Positions 4,646 to 39,087 of a stretch of 39,535 nt of DNA are shown here, one piece after another. The notes under the pieces were generated by a model. It was given only the letters and a program-made list of their open reading frames with translations, made no database searches and had not been told where the DNA came from. The position numbers and the translations under genes are program-made. The stretch is from a virus: IMG/VR virus record IMGVR_UViG_3300007344_000011, positions 1 to 39,535 of that record; one strand, 5' to 3'. Every line of letters begins with the position of its first letter. Position 1 is the first letter of the stretch.

Positions 4646-5145
4646 TGACCACCAAGCGCGAAGTCATTCTGGCGGCCTACGAGGAACTTGGCCTGGCGGA
4701 ATATAATTTTGATATTTCGCCCGAGGAAATGGCATCAGCGCGAAAGCGCCTCGACCGGATGATGGCCGAGTGGGAAGCGAAAGTGACCACCGGCTACATG
4801 ATCCCGCTCGACCCCGACGATTCGGATGAAAACGATGAGTGCGGAGTGCCTGACGCGATCATTAACGCCATGGCCATGAACCTGGCGGTTCGCATGGGGC
4901 CGAGTCTGGGCAAGGTGCTTTCCCTGGAAACGCGGGTTGGGGCAAAGAACGCATATGACGGCATGCTGGGCTTCCTTGCCGTCACCCCGTCGATCAAATA
5001 CCCCAGCACGCTGCCAGTGGGCGCCGGCAACAAGCCGCTACCGGGCCGCCGAGAGTTCTTTCAAGAGCGGAAAGACATCAACACCACGAGGAACGGGAAC
5101 ACCCTCGATGGCGACTGTGGCGACCCGTTCACCTTCAACCAATAA
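4645..5145 (+). CDS. Head-to-tail joining (head completion) protein, P22 gp4-like
   Basis: 166 residues, the same length as P22 gp4, which adds to the portal after packaging and nucleates the tail. Shared features are an N-terminal EVILAAYEELGLAEY helix, a central LDRMMAEWEAKVTTGYM helix (P22: LEAMMAEWYQDGIITGYVF), the acidic loop DPDDSDENDECGV, then AIINAMAMNLAVRMGPSLGK and a Pro/Gly-rich PSTLPVGAGN near the end (P22: PSRMPTGSGN). It is the last plus-strand gene before the inverted cassette. Its final 11 bases overlap, tail to tail, the end of the needle-like gene on the other strand. Confidence 0.88.
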   Translation: MTTKREVILAAYEELGLAEYNFDISPEEMASARKRLDRMMAEWEAKVTTGYMIPLDPDDSDENDECGVPDAIINAMAMNLAVRMGPSLGKVLSLETRVGAKNAYDGMLGFLAVTPSIKYPSTLPVGAGNKPLPGRREFFQERKDINTTRNGNTLDGDCGDPFTFNQ

Positions 5146-5869
5146 TCACATCCCAGCTCGAGCCGTTGTATTGAACCTGCACGGTTTTATATTGGACGGC
5201 CACCGCAATGGTGGCCGATCCATCCAGCAGAATCCCACCACCATCCAACGTAACCACATTGGCCGATCCGTCCACCTTCTTGACCGTCACCAGCTGTAGG
5301 AGCGAAGGTGCGGCCGGTAGCGTCACGGTGAACGCTCCCGCGGCGGCATCTGCGCGCACGGTGATCGGCTGATACGATGGCGCCGCCAGGACTGAATAGG
5401 CGGCCGTGACGTTGGCCAGGGCCGGGGCGAATGGCGGCGTCGGTGCAGGGATGTCGGGGAAAATCGGTGGCCTAAAGTCGAGCAACATGGCCTCGATGTC
5501 GTCCACCTTTGCCGCAAGCCCGCGGTACGCCTGGGGCTCGAGGTGGGCTAGTTGCTGCTCTACCAGCTCGATAATGGCCAGCAGTCCGGAAGGTAGGCCA
5601 TTCCCCCCGCTCTGATCAACCGCTTGATCTAGGGCATCCTGCGCGATCCTGGCGGCATTGTTGGCGGTTCCCTGGGAGGCGGCGGCAATCTCGGCCGCGT
5701 CCATGATCAGCGCGAGCAGCTTATCGAGGTATTCCGGGATTGCGACCACCGTGTCGACACCCAGTGACTCGAGGTAGCGAATCAGCTGTGGGTCATTTGT
5801 CAGCTGGGCAATAAGCCGGCGATCCGCCCGGAAAGAGCGCGACGTGAAAGGATTGATTGCGTCAGACAT
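5135..5869 (-). CDS. Tail needle-like protein (P22 gp26 / knobbed needle candidate)
   Basis: 244 residues. The N-terminus (SDAINPFTSRSFRADRRLI) resembles the portal/gp10-plug end of tail needles. A heptad-friendly helical middle follows (residues about 50-130, with NNAARIAQDALDQAVD). A proline-rich hinge (PPIFPDIPAPTPPFAP) leads to a beta-rich C-terminal domain (AFTVTLPAA ... NVVTLDGGG ... YNGSSWDVI), typical of trimeric phage tips and knobs. P22 gp26 (233 aa) is a trimeric fibre that plugs the tail, and some relatives have C-terminal knobs. The ATG overlaps the end of the gp10-like gene by 8 nt, keeping the P22 order 10-26 but on the opposite strand. A minor tail fibre is the alternative. 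Confidence 0.7.
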   Translation of the reverse strand: MSDAINPFTSRSFRADRRLIAQLTNDPQLIRYLESLGVDTVVAIPEYLDKLLALIMDAAEIAAASQGTANNAARIAQDALDQAVDQSGGNGLPSGLLAIIELVEQQLAHLEPQAYRGLAAKVDDIEAMLLDFRPPIFPDIPAPTPPFAPALANVTAAYSVLAAPSYQPITVRADAAAGAFTVTLPAAPSLLQLVTVKKVDGSANVVTLDGGGILLDGSATIAVAVQYKTVQVQYNGSSWDVIIG

Positions 5870-7280
5870 TCAGGGGCTCCAGGGCAGCTTCAAGCCGCAT
5901 AAATGACACGATGCAGGCGTTCGCGCCGCGGTAGCGCATGCCCATCATCTGCTCAAATTTGATTTTCGGCCGGTACTCCAGGCGTTTCTTGCGCTGCCCT
6001 TGCGTCCCCATGCTGATGAGTCGCTCGATGCTCCACTCGAGGCCATCCATTGACCACGAAAAGAACATGTGAGGATCATCACCGATAGCGGCGCGCCCGG
6101 GCGAACCAATCAGCTCCACGGCGTGCAGAATCGCGCCCTTGCTCTCGTTGTAGATCAGCACCGTATTGAACTGCCACCCGACATCCTCGCCGTACTGGGT
6201 AAAGATGTCTTTGTCGAGCATCCCAATGCGGGGAAGGTTCCTGTCATCGACAAACCATTTGTTATATGCGAACAGGAAGTGTCGCCCGTGGAATGGCGTG
6301 GCCAGGTCCGGCGATGAGTGCAGCGTGTACCAGACGGGAGCCTCGAGCACCAAGGATGCCGCGGCGTCATAAACCAGCGTATGGCGCGGCAAGCTGATGA
6401 TCAGGTTTTGGTGGCGCCGACTCATCCGCGCAACGATGGTCGATGCGGCCAGTTCGCCTTCCGGGTACTCGAGCAGCACGTCTTCAATCTCCCGGGTTGC
6501 GATCTTGGTGGCGGCACCGCCAGCCCCCAGGTAAACCGAACACGGCTCATCGTCGGCGCCACCAACGAACGCCAGCACTTGGTCAAAGCGGCAAAACATC
6601 TGGGTACCTACGGCGCCTTTCTCGATCATGGCGCCCACGTTCCTGGCGAACGGAAAGCCGGTGCCCCCCACGTTGTCGAAAATCTCGATGGTGTTTCGGT
6701 TGAATGCGTAAAGTTCCTGGCGCAGTTTCATCACGCCGACGATGGGGTCGGGATCGGCTTCGGATGATCCGTAGCGCAGCACGTTCACGCTCATTCGGTC
6801 ATTGAGGTCGGTCACGACGAGCGACACGCCATCGGTGGACACGAAATAGCCATCCATCCACACCACATCGATGCAGACGCCAAGGTTAGGGTCGGTCACG
6901 CGCACCAGCTTCGAGGCATCCCAATAAAACAGGTTCTTGTTCGAGGCAATGGCCATGACCTCGAAAGACTTTGTGAATGTCACATCGAGCCCGTTATCCC
7001 CCACATCCCCCAGGATGGTGAGCAGCCCGCCCTCGTTCATGCTGCAGAAGTATTTCCCGATCACCCAATAAGCCACACCGTTCCACTGGAACCCGCCACG
7101 ACCTCGGCCGGTGATCGTGCCGTTCACGGTGTTGTATTGGCTGATGCCTTCGGCGGTGCGCAGATACCCGGCCGATACGCCGGTTTCAGCCGGCACTGGA
7201 ATGAGGTTTTTAGGGTAGGCCGAACGGAAGTCGACCCCAGTATCAGCGGTGAAACCGGACAGAATGCTAACCTGCGACAT
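5862..7280 (-). CDS. Packaged-DNA stabilisation / tail hub protein, P22 gp10-like
   Basis: The start ATG 7280 has AGGA 9 nt upstream and gives 472 residues, exactly the length of P22 gp10. Gp10 binds gp4 and forms the hexameric tail hub to which the needle and tailspikes attach. The protein is beta-rich with repeated short strands (GGFQWNGVAYWVIG, VVWMDGYFVSTDG, LYAFNRNTIEIFDNVG), the pattern expected of this beta-propeller-like hub family. Further upstream in-frame starts would run into the divergent fibre gene. It is the first gene of a minus-strand pair embedded in an otherwise plus-strand late operon, so it needs its own promoter between 7281 and 7374. Confidence 0.85.
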   Translation of the reverse strand: MSQVSILSGFTADTGVDFRSAYPKNLIPVPAETGVSAGYLRTAEGISQYNTVNGTITGRGRGGFQWNGVAYWVIGKYFCSMNEGGLLTILGDVGDNGLDVTFTKSFEVMAIASNKNLFYWDASKLVRVTDPNLGVCIDVVWMDGYFVSTDGVSLVVTDLNDRMSVNVLRYGSSEADPDPIVGVMKLRQELYAFNRNTIEIFDNVGGTGFPFARNVGAMIEKGAVGTQMFCRFDQVLAFVGGADDEPCSVYLGAGGAATKIATREIEDVLLEYPEGELAASTIVARMSRRHQNLIISLPRHTLVYDAAASLVLEAPVWYTLHSSPDLATPFHGRHFLFAYNKWFVDDRNLPRIGMLDKDIFTQYGEDVGWQFNTVLIYNESKGAILHAVELIGSPGRAAIGDDPHMFFSWSMDGLEWSIERLISMGTQGQRKKRLEYRPKIKFEQMMGMRYRGANACIVSFMRLEAALEPLNV

Positions 7281-7374
7281 GTTCGTGATCCTGAGTGATT
7301 TTTGAGCAGTCGCCGATATTGTATGGAAAAATAGCTTGCACGTTCCGATTAATGCCATTAAGGGGTTCACCACA
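7281..7374. promoter_or_regulatory. Divergent intergenic region between gp10-like and fibre genes
   Basis: This 94-bp gap must contain a minus-strand promoter for the gp10/needle pair and possibly a plus-strand one for the fibre gene. On the minus strand there is TACAAT (5 of 6 to the -10 consensus) at 7323-7318, about 38 nt before ATG 7280. No convincing -35 is visible. On the plus strand only the AAGGGG ribosome-binding site at 7359-7364 is clear. Confidence 0.4.
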
Positions 7375-8802
7375 ATGCCAACCATTGACCAGCTCAATCA
7401 GGTTTCAGGCCTGCAGCCATCCGATATTTTTCCGTTGTTCGTTGGCATGTCCCAATCGACACGCCGCGCCACGCTCGCCCAGCTGCTGCAGTTCATGCAA
7501 GACAGCCTGATCCTTCCTAGTCCGGACCTGGCCATTCAGTACGCGGCGCCATCGACGGACGCTTTCGTGGTGCCGATCACCCAGCCAACCACGGGTAACA
7601 CTGACGTCCATTTGATCCTGACCCCGGCGTCTGCATTTGCAAGTGGCACCATTCGGCTCCCGCCCAAGGACGGCCTCAAGGATGGCCAGATTGTGCGTGT
7701 GAACACCACCCAGGCCATCACGGCCCTGACCTTCGACTTGAACGGCGCCAGCACCATCACGGGCGGCCCTACCACCCTGCAGGCGAACAATACGTTTACC
7801 CTCGCCTACAGCATGCCCGCGTCGAATTGGTACATGCTCGAGCGCAGCGTCCCCAATCCTGCAACGGTTGACACCATCCAGACGCTGCTGAATAAAACTT
7901 TCGTGGCGCCGGCCCTGGGCACGCCGATCAGCGGCGACCTGGCCAACTGCCTAAATTTGCCAATCGGATCTGGTGTTTCTGGGCTTGGCGCGGGCGTCGC
8001 CACCTTCTTGTCCCTGGGCACCGCCGCCGCGCTGCTCGCATTGATGACGCCGAACGCCACGGGTAGCGGTTCGCTAGTGTTCAACAGCAGCCCGCTTTTC
8101 ATCGGCCCGCGCCTGGGTACGCCGTTCAGCGGCATTCTGAGTAACTGCACCGGGCTTCCTATCTCGACGGGCGTTGCTGGCCTGGCTGCTGGCGTTGCTG
8201 CCTTCCTGGCGGCTCCCACCTCGGCCACGCTGCTGGCGTTGCTGGCAGATGCCACCGGCACAGGCGCGAACGTATTCAATAACGGGCCAACGCTCATTGC
8301 CCCACGACTGGGAACCCCATTTAGCGGCGACCTTTCCAACTGCATCAATTTGCCAATTTCTACCGGCGTATCTGGTCTGGCTGCGCTGGTGGCGGCATTC
8401 CTGGCTGCGCCATCATCGGCCAACCTGCTGGCGGCGATGACCGATAAGAGCGGAACCGGCCTTTGTGTTTTCGCCAACGGCCCAACGCTCGCCGCTCCAG
8501 TTCTGAATGCGCCATCGTTCGGCGCGCCAGTAACCAAGACCGCGGCGTTCACCTTGGGCGCCACTGAAAACATGGTGATTTGCAACGGGACTGCCACTAT
8601 TCCCGTGACGCTGCCAGCAGCATCGAGCGCGCCAGGACGTACCGTGCGTATCAAGAACATTGCCGCATTCACTGTTACGTCAGCGACCGCAAACGTAGTG
8701 CCGCTTGCTGGTGGTGCTGCAGGTACTGCCATTCTCCCGGCAACTGCAGGTGCTACTGCACTGCTCGTCAGTGATGGCGCCAACTGGATTATCATGGCCT
8801 AA
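7375..8802 (+). CDS. Fibre-like virion protein with three 65-residue repeats
   Basis: 475 residues from ATG 7375 (AAGGGG 10 nt upstream). Residues 1-50 look like an attachment segment (MPTIDQLNQ...FVGMSQSTRRATLAQL). A first beta domain at about 70-170 ends in SNWYML. Three tandem repeats of exactly 65 residues start near residues 180, 245 and 310, each beginning LGTP(I/F)SG(D/I)L.NC and continuing LPI..GV.GL. A truncated fourth copy begins near 375. The C-terminal domain (TIPVTLPAAS...SDGANWIIM) resembles the tip domain of the needle-like protein. Repeats of this type are common in trimeric tail or head fibres. Whether it sits on head or tail cannot be told; it lies next to the gp10/needle pair. 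Confidence 0.75.
   Translation: MPTIDQLNQVSGLQPSDIFPLFVGMSQSTRRATLAQLLQFMQDSLILPSPDLAIQYAAPSTDAFVVPITQPTTGNTDVHLILTPASAFASGTIRLPPKDGLKDGQIVRVNTTQAITALTFDLNGASTITGGPTTLQANNTFTLAYSMPASNWYMLERSVPNPATVDTIQTLLNKTFVAPALGTPISGDLANCLNLPIGSGVSGLGAGVATFLSLGTAAALLALMTPNATGSGSLVFNSSPLFIGPRLGTPFSGILSNCTGLPISTGVAGLAAGVAAFLAAPTSATLLALLADATGTGANVFNNGPTLIAPRLGTPFSGDLSNCINLPISTGVSGLAALVAAFLAAPSSANLLAAMTDKSGTGLCVFANGPTLAAPVLNAPSFGAPVTKTAAFTLGATENMVICNGTATIPVTLPAASSAPGRTVRIKNIAAFTVTSATANVVPLAGGAAGTAILPATAGATALLVSDGANWIIMA
7912..8496 (+). repeat. Three tandem 195-bp coding repeats
   Basis: Repeat units begin at 7912, 8107 and 8302, with a partial fourth at 8497. The spacing is exactly 195 bp, or 65 codons. Each encodes an LGTP-x-SG motif followed by NC, LPI, GVSGL/GVAGL, an AAFLAAP-type helix, and a ...G.G..VF..GP end. 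The repeats are better conserved at protein than at DNA level, which points to old duplication. Confidence 0.85.
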
Positions 8803-28215: not shown

Positions 28216-28318
28216 CACCGCAATCAATCAAATACCTAACTAAAATATGAATGCTTGCACTACACATCGGTACCATATAGATTCCCACCCATCGAATTCC
28301 ATCGGAGACCGCTACCCA

Positions 28319-28519
28319 ATGAACCTGAAAAAAAGCGTGATGGTGGCCCTGGCCCAGCGCGGAATGAAACAGAAAGACCTGGCAGACAAGGTAGGGATGA
28401 GCCAGGGCAGCATGAGCCAGCTTGTGGGGCAGACGTCTTGCACTGGCGCCACATTGGTCAAGCTTGCAAGCGCGTTCGGCCTGAAGGTCAGCGAGTTCGT
28501 GGCGCTTGGCGAGGATTAA
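28319..28519 (+). CDS. Cro/C1-type HTH transcription regulator
   Basis: 66 residues from ATG 28319 (CGGAGA upstream). The whole protein is one HTH_3 domain: VALAQRGMKQKDLADKVGMS, then a recognition helix with QGSMSQLVGQ, and the closing helices ATLVKLASAFGLKVSEFV. No peptidase or dimerisation domain. In position it corresponds to cro, the first gene of the rightward operon, across a divergent region with no cI-like partner opposite. It probably controls the early promoters beside it. Confidence 0.85.
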   Translation: MNLKKSVMVALAQRGMKQKDLADKVGMSQGSMSQLVGQTSCTGATLVKLASAFGLKVSEFVALGED

Positions 28520-33868: not shown

Positions 33869-34315
33869 GTGACCGCACTCATCAAACACCAGAAGCAACC
33901 CTGCCCAACGAGCTGTATGTCGGCATGCGTGGCCATGGTCGCCGGCCTACCAGCGGGCGCCGTGCGCCGCGACATGCACGACCGATTCAGAAACAAGGGG
34001 ATGAGCCTGCGCCAGATGCTTGACGAGCTGTCTATCCCGTTCACCGAGTTCAGCACGGTAGACGATAGCAGGCTCGAGTTTGTCGGCGCCTACCTTTGCA
34101 CGATGCCATCACTGAATATCCCTGGCGGCATACACGCGGTGGTCATCGAGGTGACAGGCACCACGCATCACGTTCTTGATCCGAATCGTGGAAGGAAGGG
34201 CCGCAAGTTCTACGTAAAACGCGGAACCAAGGCTCGTAACGGCGTGGAGCTGGGAGGGTTTACCGTCGACGCATACATCTGCCACAGCTGGCTAAGGGAT
34301 CGCCCACATGACTGA
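33869..34315 (+). CDS. C39-like cysteine peptidase candidate
   Basis: 148 residues from GTG 33869 (AAGGGGGAG 6 nt upstream). It has the residue order of papain-like C39-type peptidases: Q10 (oxyanion hole) in HQKQPCPTSCMSACVAMVAG with C16 as likely nucleophile, H89 in GGIHAVVIEV, and D104 in HHVLDPNRGRKG. In that family the enzyme cuts leader peptides or related substrates. Here there is no transporter domain, and similar stand-alone proteins in phages have unknown substrates. It could also be a non-peptidase papain-like fold such as an amidase or deubiquitinase type. Overlaps the RusA gene by 8 nt. Confidence 0.68.
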   Translation: MTALIKHQKQPCPTSCMSACVAMVAGLPAGAVRRDMHDRFRNKGMSLRQMLDELSIPFTEFSTVDDSRLEFVGAYLCTMPSLNIPGGIHAVVIEVTGTTHHVLDPNRGRKGRKFYVKRGTKARNGVELGGFTVDAYICHSWLRDRPHD

Positions 34316-34964
34316 ATTGGAGACGCTTCACGAATTCATCCGTGAACTTGCCAGCGGGAGCTGGGAGATTCGCCACGCTTACGAGGAATTGGGGTTTAGC
34401 TATGACAAGGGCCCCGACCTGCTCCCGCCGCCTGGGCGTGACCTACCTGGCGGCCTGACCATCGTTATCGAGGGCGAGCCCCAGGGCAAAGGCCGGCCGC
34501 GCTTCACCGTGCGCGGCGACGGCAAAAACCGGTTTGTCCAAGTGTTCACCGATGACCGTACCGCGGCCTACGAGGAACTGATTCAGCTCGAGGTGCTGCG
34601 CGTGATGGGCGGCATGGAACTGATGCGCGAGGTGACATCGATCCGGCGCCGCACCATGGCCGAGGCCTACGCCGCGTTTGGCTACACGCCGCATTTCATG
34701 GGGCCAGTTCGCATCGAAATGGAAATGCGCCACCCGGTGCGCGTCAGCTGGACAAAAGCCAAGACGGCCGGCGCACTTTCTGGCCACATCGCTCCGACGC
34801 TCAAGGTCGACTTCGACAACTGCGCGAAGGTGTTCTGTGACGCCTTCAATGGGATTTTGTGGGGTGATGACACGCAAGTGATCCGCGCCAGCATCGAGCG
34901 CACCTTTGCCGAGGAACCCAGCGTGCTGGTGCGCGTGATCCCGCTCGACTTGGAAAGCGCGTGA
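34308..34964 (+). CDS. rusA: RusA-family Holliday junction resolvase
   Basis: 218 residues. The resolvase domain starts near residue 50: VIEGEPQGKGRPRF is the typical RusA opening. The metal-binding acidic cluster follows in LKVDFDNCAKVFCDAFNGILWGDDTQV (D168, D170, K174, D178, D187, D188). RusA cuts four-way junctions symmetrically and would resolve recombination or replication intermediates before packaging. The first 45 residues and the insertion at about 95-130 (MELMREVTSIRRRTMAEAYA) make it longer than E. coli RusA (120). Overlaps both neighbours. Confidence 0.92.
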   Translation: MTELETLHEFIRELASGSWEIRHAYEELGFSYDKGPDLLPPPGRDLPGGLTIVIEGEPQGKGRPRFTVRGDGKNRFVQVFTDDRTAAYEELIQLEVLRVMGGMELMREVTSIRRRTMAEAYAAFGYTPHFMGPVRIEMEMRHPVRVSWTKAKTAGALSGHIAPTLKVDFDNCAKVFCDAFNGILWGDDTQVIRASIERTFAEEPSVLVRVIPLDLESA

Positions 34965-35932: not shown

Positions 35933-36008
35933 AGCGAGGTAGTTCAGTTGGTAGAACGCTGGGCCCATACCCCAGACGTCGCGGGTTCGAGTCCCGCCCT
36001 CGCAACCA
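35933..36008 (+). tRNA. tRNA-Met-like (anticodon CAU), initiator-like features
   Basis: 76 nt with a full cloverleaf: acceptor GCGAGG/CCTCGC with an A1.A72 mismatch, D stem GTTC/GAAC, anticodon stem CTGGG/CCCAG, T stem GCGGG/CCCGC with loop TTCGAGT, and 3' A-CCA encoded. Anticodon loop CCCATAC gives CAU. Three G:C pairs next to the loop, the 1-72 mismatch, and CGCAACCA at the 3' end are hallmarks of initiator tRNA. However, T11:A24 is elongator-like and position 33 is C instead of the near-universal U. It may be Met, Ile2 (after lysidine), or an initiator mimic. Confidence 0.85.
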
Positions 36009-36089: not shown

Positions 36090-36167
36090 AGGGGTTTCGC
36101 CAAGCTGGCCCAAGGCATCGGGTTTTGATCCCGACATTCCCAGGTTCGAATCCTGGAACCCCTTCCA
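36090..36167 (+). tRNA. tRNA-Gln (anticodon UUG)
   Basis: 78 nt: acceptor AGGGGTT/AACCCCT, D arm with GCC/GGC, anticodon stem TCGGG/CCCGA with loop TTTTGAT (UUG), T arm CCAGG TTCGAAT CCTGG, discriminator T, CCA encoded. The anticodon arm and T arm resemble bacterial tRNA-Gln closely. An 81-nt spacer separates it from the first tRNA; that spacer has a GTGGA/TCCAC hairpin but no cloverleaf. Confidence 0.93.
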
Positions 36168-36274
36168 CCATTGCCGCCATCGGTTGTTATCGAGCTACGG
36201 CATATCCCCGGCGTGAACGGCACCAGCCTGCGCCGGCCCTATCAACCAACGCCACGCCCGCACATGGAAGTGCA

Positions 36275-36304
36275 AGCCCAGCCATAAACCCGCTGGGCTT
36301 TTTC
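36275..36304 (+). terminator. Rho-independent terminator after the tRNAs
   Basis: An 8-bp stem AGCCCAGC / GCTGGGCT (36275-36282, 36292-36299) with a 9-nt loop is followed by a T tract to 36303. The rest of the stretch 36168-36363 holds no gene that I can see. After the terminator, CGCGATTTATGCT may serve a promoter for the micro-gene at 36364. Confidence 0.88.
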
Positions 36305-36363: not shown

Positions 36364-36489
36364 ATGGCCAAAGCACCGGTAAAAATGCCGAGCAAAAACA
36401 AAGTAGAAAATTCCCGCGCCGACATGAAGGACGACAAAGCGCTGGGGATGAAAATGGGCGGTGGCAAGAAGCCGGCCAAGAAGAAATAG
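36364..36489 (+). CDS. Lys-rich basic micro-protein (41 aa)
   Basis: ATG 36364 with GAGGTGA 7 nt upstream; TAG at 36487-36489. Begins MAKAPVKMPSKNKVENSRAD and ends with GGGKKPAKKK; about a third of residues are Lys, none is Cys or aromatic. Such a peptide could bind nucleic acid or be a packaged internal peptide, but nothing is proven. It is flanked by terminators on both sides (36275-36304 and 36502-36546), so it forms its own transcription unit. Confidence 0.65.
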   Translation: MAKAPVKMPSKNKVENSRADMKDDKALGMKMGGGKKPAKKK

Positions 36490-37076: not shown

Positions 37077-37132
37077 GTGGGCGCTCGATTTGCAGTATGC
37101 TTGCCCCTGACCAACTGATAGAGGGCCCGCAC

Positions 37133-37639
37133 ATGGCGGCCAAACAACCAAAGCGCGGACGGAACTACTACAAACCAGAATTCTGTGAGAAGGCGCGCAA
37201 CCTTTGCTTACTCGGCGCCAGTGACGTGCAGCTGGCCGCCGCCTTGAACGTGTCCGTATCGGCGCTCAACGCCTGGAAAAAGAAATACCCCGAATTCCTC
37301 GAGGCGATCCAGTCGGGCAAGATCATTGCTGACTCGCTGGTGGGCCACAGCCTGTTCAAGATGGCCACCGGGTTCACTCGCCCCGAAATTGATATCCGGG
37401 TGGTGAAGGGCCAGATCGTGAAGACCGAAATTGAACGGTACTACCCGCCCAGCTTCCCGGCCGTGGCGTTCTACCTGACCAATCGTCAGCGGGAAATCTG
37501 GCGCCATCATCAAGAGCTTGAGCACTCCGGCACCATCGCGGCGAGCGACATGTCTGACGAGCAGCTCGACGCCAAGATGGTGGCCTTGGCCAAGGAACTG
37601 GGCATTGCCGTTCCTGACTTCAGCGGTGGCAAGGAATGA
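37133..37639 (+). CDS. terS: Terminase small subunit
   Basis: 168 residues from ATG 37133 (GAGGG 7 nt upstream); P22 gp3 is 162. It recognises the packaging site on phage DNA. Residues about 20-55 form a homeodomain-like HTH: EKARNLCLLGASDVQLAAAL, then NVSVSALNAWKKKYPEF. Then come helices with HSLFKMATGFTRPEID and RYYPPSFPAVAFYLTNRQRE, a phrase common to TerS of many podo- and siphophages. The last part binds TerL. The stop overlaps the TerL ATG. Confidence 0.9.
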   Translation: MAAKQPKRGRNYYKPEFCEKARNLCLLGASDVQLAAALNVSVSALNAWKKKYPEFLEAIQSGKIIADSLVGHSLFKMATGFTRPEIDIRVVKGQIVKTEIERYYPPSFPAVAFYLTNRQREIWRHHQELEHSGTIAASDMSDEQLDAKMVALAKELGIAVPDFSGGKE

Positions 37640-39087
37640 AAGCCCCCGACTCGACGGTGCGCCTGCAGAAAGAGGAATTCCTTGAGCTGCTCGAGGAAAA
37701 GAAGCGTCGTCGCCGCGGGCGTCGGATGTTTTCGTTCAAGCCATACCAGTGGCAGGGCAACTTCTACAAATCAGGGCGCACCCACAAGCAACGCCTGATG
37801 ATGGCCGCCAACCGGGTGGGCAAGACCTACTCCGCTGCCTACGAAATGGCGCTACACCCTACCGGCCGGTATCCAGACTGGTGGGAGGGGCACCGCTTCA
37901 GCGGGCCTATCGTCGCCTGGGCCCTGGGCGTTACCGGCGAGCAAATCCGTGACGTAATCCAGAAAAACCTGTTGGGCGACTGGGATGACAAGACCAATGG
38001 TCCTTCGGGCACCGGGGCAATCCCACGCGAGGACATCGGCGGATTCATCCGATCGCCGCAAACCAAGAACCTGATCAAAGACGTACAGATTCAGCACGTC
38101 ACCGGGGGCATGTCCAAGCTGTCGTTCAAGGCCTACAGCCAGGGCCAGCATGTGTTGATGGGCGACTCTATCGACCTGATATGGATTGACGAGGAACCGC
38201 TCGACCAAGCCATCTATCCGCAATGCCTCGTTCGTACAATGACCGGCGACCAAGGCCGCGGCGGCATCGTGATGATGACGTTCACGCCAGAAAACGGCAT
38301 GACGCCCATCGTCGCCCAGTTCATGGAAGACATTCAGCCAGGCCAGGAACTGTTCAACGTCACATGGGACGATGCGCCCCACCTTACCGACGAGGTGAAG
38401 GCGCAGATTCTGAAAGCGACCCCGGTGCATTTGCGTGAAATGCGCTCGAAGGGCGTGCCAGCTGTTGGTGCCGGCCTCATCTTTACCCAGGCCGATGAAG
38501 ACATCATGATCGATCCGTTTTCGATCCCGCCGCACTGGGTCATCATCAACGGTTGCGACTTCGGGTGGAATCACCCACAAGCCCATTGCCAGCTGGCTTG
38601 GGACCGTGACGCCGATGTCGTTTACCTCGTGAATTCATGGCGCAAGGCCGAGCAGGATGCCTCCCAGGCATGGACCGCCGTTAAGGGCTGGGCCCGACAC
38701 TTCCCCACCGCATGGCCGCACGATGGTCTGCAGCATGAAAAGGGCGGTGGTGAGGTGCTGAAAGAGCAGTACAAGACGGCCGGCTTCAACATGCTGCCGT
38801 TCCACGCAACCTGGCCAAGCGGGAGCAACAGCGTAGAGGCCGGTATCTGGGAGCTAAACGAGCGCATGACAAACGGCACGTTCAAGGTGTTCAAGAACCA
38901 ACAGGCCTTCTTCGAGGAAAAGCGGCTCTACCACCGCGACGACAAGGGCAAGATTGTGAAACTACGCGATGACCTGATATCGGCTGTACGCTATGCCTAC
39001 ATGATGTTGCGCTGTGCTGTGCCGAACACCGCCGCCAAGGTTCGCGCCCAAGCCATCGTTCCCCCTACCGTAAATCACTGGAGTTAG
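37636..39087 (+). CDS. terL: Terminase large subunit, P22 gp2-like
   Basis: 483 residues (P22 gp2 is 499). Motor ATPase and headful nuclease. N-terminal ATPase: an adenine-binding segment FKPYQWQGNFYKSG, Walker A MAANRVGKTYSA (residues 56-67), Walker B LIWIDEE with D185 and E186, and a coupling motif near MMTFTPENG. C-terminal RNase H-like nuclease: GCDFGWNHPQAH gives the first Asp, with further acids in the middle and RDDLISAVRYAYMM near residue 450. Overlaps TerS (ATGA) and is followed after 4 nt by the portal. Headful packaging fits the permuted assembly. Confidence 0.95.
   Translation: MKAPDSTVRLQKEEFLELLEEKKRRRRGRRMFSFKPYQWQGNFYKSGRTHKQRLMMAANRVGKTYSAAYEMALHPTGRYPDWWEGHRFSGPIVAWALGVTGEQIRDVIQKNLLGDWDDKTNGPSGTGAIPREDIGGFIRSPQTKNLIKDVQIQHVTGGMSKLSFKAYSQGQHVLMGDSIDLIWIDEEPLDQAIYPQCLVRTMTGDQGRGGIVMMTFTPENGMTPIVAQFMEDIQPGQELFNVTWDDAPHLTDEVKAQILKATPVHLREMRSKGVPAVGAGLIFTQADEDIMIDPFSIPPHWVIINGCDFGWNHPQAHCQLAWDRDADVVYLVNSWRKAEQDASQAWTAVKGWARHFPTAWPHDGLQHEKGGGEVLKEQYKTAGFNMLPFHATWPSGSNSVEAGIWELNERMTNGTFKVFKNQQAFFEEKRLYHRDDKGKIVKLRDDLISAVRYAYMMLRCAVPNTAAKVRAQAIVPPTVNHWS

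Follow-up and report, generated by a model that had tools for sequence, protein, structure and literature searches.

The tRNA-CAU gene at 35933-36008 of the window, by which we mean the whole 39,535-base virus record analysed here, is best read from its sequence as an intact phage initiator tRNA gene, of an under-described type with C33 in the anticodon loop and an elongator-type D-arm. The record is that of a podovirus, with portal, head and terminase proteins that match PHROG families. The terminase gene shows 75% identity, across 88% of its length, to the one in Pseudomonas phage PfAn1 (PV364321), which was isolated on P. fluorescens, and from this relationship we infer that the host of the window phage is probably Pseudomonas.

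Anatomy and scoring of the tRNA

ARAGORN called a tRNA-Met(CAT) at exactly these positions, and Rfam matched the gene to RF00005 (62.3 bits, E 2.6e-11) with a CAU anticodon and a full cloverleaf, which folds at -29.2 kcal/mol (z -2.55). Parsing in standard tRNA numbering bore out every element named in the initial annotation, that is, an unpaired 1:72 (A1xA72), the GGG/CCC anticodon stem with three G:C pairs at 29-31:39-41, the last letters CGCAACCA (A73 followed by an encoded CCA), U11:A24 and C33. It also revealed G2:C71, C3:G70 and G4:C69 and, as a further feature absent from that annotation, C38 in place of A38, the anticodon loop reading C32 C33 C34 A35 U36 A37 C38. Neither the paired 1:72 that allows EF-Tu use nor U33, both expected in an elongator tRNA-Met, is found. 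The initiator pair A11:U24 is absent as well, which counts against the initiator reading; being secondary, this pair was not treated as defining.

Table 1. Features of the window around the tRNA-CAU gene
Feature	Position	Strand	Evidence and remarks
Phage tRNA-CAU, read as initiator (tRNA-fMet type), with C33, C38 and elongator-type D-arm	35933..36008	+	ARAGORN, Rfam, parsing, comparison
Acceptor stem, 5' side, A1-G7	35933..35939	+	Parsing; G2:C71, C3:G70 and G4:C69 are formylase-type pairs
D stem and loop, GUUC...GAAC	35942..35957	+	U11:A24, elongator-like; D region log-odds -12.2
Anticodon arm, CUGGG-CCCAUAC-CCCAG	35958..35974	+	Three G:C pairs, C33, CAU, C38; 29-31 log-odds +16.9
tRNA-Gln(UUG)	36090..36167	+	ARAGORN, Rfam; adjoins the tRNA-CAU in L165 too; unannotated in PfAn1
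Terminator-like hairpin then U-run, 3' of both tRNAs	36274..36304 (about)	+	Fold; spotted by eye; the 9-nt loop lies outside the limits of the scan
RusA-like Holliday junction resolvase, upstream of the tRNA	34308..34964	+	PHROG, tblastn; kept neighbour in relatives
Terminase small and large subunits, downstream	37097..39087	+	PHROG, tblastn; conserved, used to recognise the phage group

Bacterial tRNA-fMet, as found in P. fluorescens and E. coli (L498, L496), shares with the window tRNA the CAU anticodon, the unpaired 1:72, G2:C71, C3:G70 and G4:C69, the three G:C pairs, A73 and CGCAACCA. The window tRNA differs in having A1 and not C1, U11:A24 and not A11:U24, and the loop CCCAUAC and not CUCAUAA; it matches the P. 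fluorescens molecule at 56 of 77 aligned positions.

We scored these differences as log-odds by region, trained on viral initiators versus elongators. The window tRNA obtained +6.4 for the acceptor and -12.2 for the D-arm, which are independent scores, together with +9.5 at 1:72 and +16.9 at 29-31, which restate known rules since the training sets were picked by these two regions. Its total was +22, as compared to +68 for the host-type tRNA-fMet of P. fluorescens, -3.6 for the elongator tRNA-Met and -59 for the tRNA-Ile2 of the same species. The initial annotation had listed an Ile2 species, in which C34 would become lysidine and read AUA, among its options. This identity agrees with the CAU anticodon only; the host Ile2 has G1:C72 and shares only 46/77 aligned positions with the window tRNA, and the unpaired 1:72, the three G:C pairs and the log-odds all contradict it, so that we rejected it as extremely improbable.

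The elongator-type 11:24 pair pointed out in the initial annotation is indeed present, but the same type (Y11:R24) occurs in about 20% of phage initiators (27/136, against 1/51 chromosomal C33 initiators, among the matches listed). Its link with C33 among phages is not significant (17/66 for C33 and 10/70 for U33, p 0.13, among the matches listed). An elongator becomes an initiator when the 1:72 mismatch and three G:C pairs are transplanted to it (Varshney 1993, as summarized in PMC11231383), while A11:U24 has been termed a secondary formylase determinant (PMC4611024). On these grounds, the chimeric window tRNA would be expected to work. We also observed, in the L544:10392-10423 region, a viral tRNA-CAU with A1xA72, a GUUC/GAAC D stem, C33, C38 and CGCAACCA, whose anticodon stem (GAGCA/UGCUC) is without the three G:C pairs. 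The CAU tRNAs of phages PB119, Boevelstad and Nican01 (L493, L495 and L506) have initiator-type acceptor stems and elongator D-arms, likewise without three G:C pairs.

The same locus in related phages

Four of the loci that came out of an IMG/VR pattern scan for C33 initiators (described below), L094, L104, L153 and L165, belong to phages related to that of the window, as tblastn of window proteins showed, and their tRNA lies close to the same RusA genes, terminase genes or both. These were compared together with the window and PfAn1 (six phages). C32, C33, A37 and the three G:C pairs are found in all six and C38 in five of them. Pairs 29:41, 30:40, 31:39, 2:71, 3:70 and 4:69 are invariant, and pairs 7:66, 11:24, 12:23, 27:43, 28:42, 50:64 and 51:63 vary with pairing mostly kept. 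Between the window and PfAn1 there are five two-sided compensatory changes that preserve pairing (5:68, 7:66, 11:24, 28:42, 51:63); pair 27:43 is broken in PfAn1. Invariant initiator pairs combined with covarying other stems are what would be expected of a functional tRNA under selection as an initiator.

A decaying or mis-sequenced gene, of which C33 and A1xA72 might be signs as both are odd by elongator rules, was another option of the initial annotation. We ruled it out as having next to no probability: the compensatory changes and the initiator elements conserved in six phages contradict it, all stems are intact, CCA is encoded and the same loop recurs in an isolate that was sequenced independently. 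We looked for relatives with a normal elongator tRNA at the corresponding locus, which would have pointed to an error in the window, and found none, as 5/5 relatives with a tRNA-CAU there have C33. In the stretches of DNA examined from L001 and L415, which have similar terminases, no tRNA was present.

The PfAn1 tRNA-Met is about 81% identical to the window tRNA and shares its locus, C33, C38, the three G:C pairs and an elongator-type 11:24, but differs by U1:A72, by C11:G24 and by the lack of an annotated adjoining tRNA-Gln. Indeed, 1:72 is a weak U1:A72 pair in five of the six phages and a mismatch in the window copy. The 11:24 pair is A11:U24 in L104 and L153, C11:G24 in PfAn1, L094 and L165, and U11:A24 in the window. 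In the terminase tree, read without L418 (an extreme branch, probably a bad translation), L104 with its initiator D-arm is placed among phages with elongator D-arms, and therefore tRNA and terminase histories may differ. The alternating D-arms at this locus are a natural counterpart of the classic elongator-to-initiator conversion experiments.

These variable positions also bear on whether the gene encodes an elongator or dual-use methionine tRNA. The U1:A72 of the relatives might allow some elongation, the D-arm scores as elongator-type (-12.2), C11:G24 is common to the host elongator tRNA-Met, which also has C38, and the phage CAU tRNAs of Nican01 and Boevelstad pair U1:A72 with the absence of three G:C pairs. 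Such a function is nevertheless unlikely, considering the 1:72 mismatch of the window copy, the invariance of the three G:C pairs in the lineage and the full initiator D-arms of L104 and L153 at the same locus.

Among other phages, the Mesyanzhinovviridae/Pamexvirus initiators (Donnerlittchen, QDWS359, PaMx74) resemble that of the window in their initiator-type acceptor stem and adjoining terminase, and differ in their A11:U24 D-arm; Donnerlittchen shares C33, while PaMx74 and QDWS359 keep U33.

C33 in viral and cellular initiators

An IMG/VR pattern scan for initiator-type arms with C33 gave 81 stretches (T-arm and variable-loop motifs had to match exactly in the scans, and what is counted is sequences, not events). 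There were 66 distinct viral C33 tRNAs with three G:C pairs, of which 62 are without G:C at 1:72 and show many different mismatches and weak pairs at this position. A second scan, for viral C33 tRNAs without G31:C39, gave 44 distinct sequences. Among the matches listed, a strong 1:72 pair is absent from 40/44 of these and from 34/69 of the corresponding U33 tRNAs (p about 5e-6); C33 therefore accompanies initiator-type acceptor stems, and its rarity outside them is a further point against an elongator or dual-use tRNA. We also considered that C33 compensates for a paired 1:72, and rejected this since weak pairing is not enriched (14/66 for C33 versus 21/70 for U33, p 0.33, among the matches listed). 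As a rough estimate, among viral initiators that have three G:C pairs one in five carries C33 (15 versus 55 with one fixed T-arm, where the U33 count of 55 may include host DNA at provirus edges).

In cells, C33 initiators were found, among the matches listed, in Leuconostocaceae, Erysipelotrichaceae, Phycisphaerales, Patescibacteria and some archaeal bins. No U33 initiator was matched in 11/12 bacterial genomes checked, three MAG chromosome records included, suggesting that the C33 initiator appears to be the sole one there. At loci L293-L372, only the C33 type was matched in several lineages, e.g. Weissella, Leuconostoc, Convivina and Phycisphaerales. In humans, the initiator carries the anticodon arm CUGGG-CCCAUAA-CCCAG together with C11:G24, and we take its striking likeness to the window tRNA as convergence.

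Initiators of Leuconostocaceae, Phycisphaerales, Patescibacteria and the eukaryotic cytosol thus share C33 and the three G:C pairs with the window tRNA. They also depart from it: the chromosomal C33 initiators of the genome scan have A38 (51/51) and mostly A11:U24 (47/51, among the matches listed), and the eukaryotic ones have A54 as well (PMC9023262). The statement of the initial annotation that U33 is nearly invariant holds for elongators and fails for initiators, C33 being established in those of eukaryotes (PMC9023262) and present in bacterial genomes too. On this comparative evidence C33 is to be regarded as a feature of initiators, not as a defect. No account of phage initiators with C33 came up in our searches of the open literature.

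Retention of the tRNA and its genomic setting

Codon use underlies most explanations of phage tRNAs and is inapplicable to an initiator; AUG has no synonymous codon, and codon compensation therefore cannot explain a phage initiator. We consider it probable that the window encodes a functional initiator, kept for initiation once the host initiator tRNA runs short or is cleaved in its loop, with the changes at 33 and 38 making it a poor nuclease target. Two of the four options in the initial annotation accordingly lead, namely that the tRNA acts in initiation and that it stands in for a host tRNA that has been cleaved. In this scheme, charging by host MetRS is predicted from the CAU anticodon and A73, formylation from the unpaired 1:72 with G2:C71, C3:G70 and G4:C69, and acceptance in the ribosomal P site from the three G:C pairs of the anticodon stem. 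The elongator-type D-arm would cost only a secondary formylation determinant, and C33 would be tolerated as initiators need no A-site decoding. In infected cells, the phage copy would sustain translation starts once the host initiator tRNA is depleted or cleaved in the anticodon loop, while positions 33 and 38 would make it a poor substrate for such nucleases.

Resistance to nucleases is our first choice for retention because the base 5' of a known cut is changed. Enteric VapC cleaves tRNA-fMet between A38 and C39, as stated in PMC4105405, and 33 and 38 are the positions at which the window loop differs from that of Pseudomonas tRNA-fMet, C38 lying directly 5' of the cut. A loop change at a known cut site, one mark expected of a nuclease-insensitive phage tRNA, is found here. 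Phage tRNAs have been proposed to escape anticodon nucleases through loop changes (PMC10264068), which, as in the window tRNA, lie at or near known cut sites. The same eLife study reports that S. flexneri phages generally avoid encoding tRNA-fMet, the VapC target, which counts against the evasion reading, whereas the window phage encodes an initiator with a changed loop. Bases other than A at 38 were seen in 12/110 phage C33 initiators, 16/70 phage U33 initiators and 0/51 chromosomal C33 initiators (among the matches listed, in sets that are not phylogenetically independent, the chromosomal one consisting of C33-using lineages only), a distribution that is only suggestive of nuclease evasion. 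C38 and Y11:R24 are also found in the elongator tRNA-Met of P. fluorescens, and because of this C38 could reflect ancestry and not evasion.

A strong rival, to which we give a substantial but clearly smaller probability, is that the initiator is kept only to raise initiation capacity during the phage translation burst, its loop drifting neutrally as no A-site decoding is needed. Consistent with this, several bacterial lineages appear to manage with a C33 initiator as their only one, and C33 compensates nothing visible, the 1:72 classes of viral C33 and U33 tRNAs being similar. The C33 invariant in six phages with widely diverged stems fits drift less well, as some reversion to U33 might be expected, and so do the non-A38 bases of phage initiators, which are missing from the chromosomal C33 set. 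A phage initiator whose anticodon loop is conserved yet unlike that of the host offers a clean test case for nuclease evasion. Only tentatively do we extend the nuclease reading to a widespread phage initiator subtype (C33, often with altered 38 and D-arm) that replaces the host initiator tRNA under attack; if true, initiator cleavage would be a real front in phage defence, in which phages alter the loop read by host nucleases.

Finally, the gene might make up for a host initiator tRNA gene that prophage integration has disrupted. Such tRNA-dependent lysogeny is known for other phages (PMC10865867), and the window has a gene for a small HTH regulator at 28247-28519. We judge it very unlikely for the window phage, since no integrase was found among 30 window proteins searched against PHROGs (a set leaving out some smaller ORFs) and multiple initiator genes occur in some bacteria (one E. 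coli cluster has three).

The two tRNA genes follow a block that closes with the RusA resolvase and an unknown gene, and they precede the holin and terminase genes. A sigma-70-like promoter was looked for near the tRNAs and none was found. Just 3' of them, at 36364-36489, is a lysine-rich ORF of 41 aa, and a similar small basic ORF lies near the terminase genes of L001; in PfAn1, an HNH endonuclease gene lies downstream of the tRNA-Met. Elsewhere in the window, minus-strand genes at 5135-7397, including a head-closure protein (PHROG 578), lie within the plus-strand structural block, with the same inversion in L165 and a minus-strand gene at the corresponding place in PfAn1.
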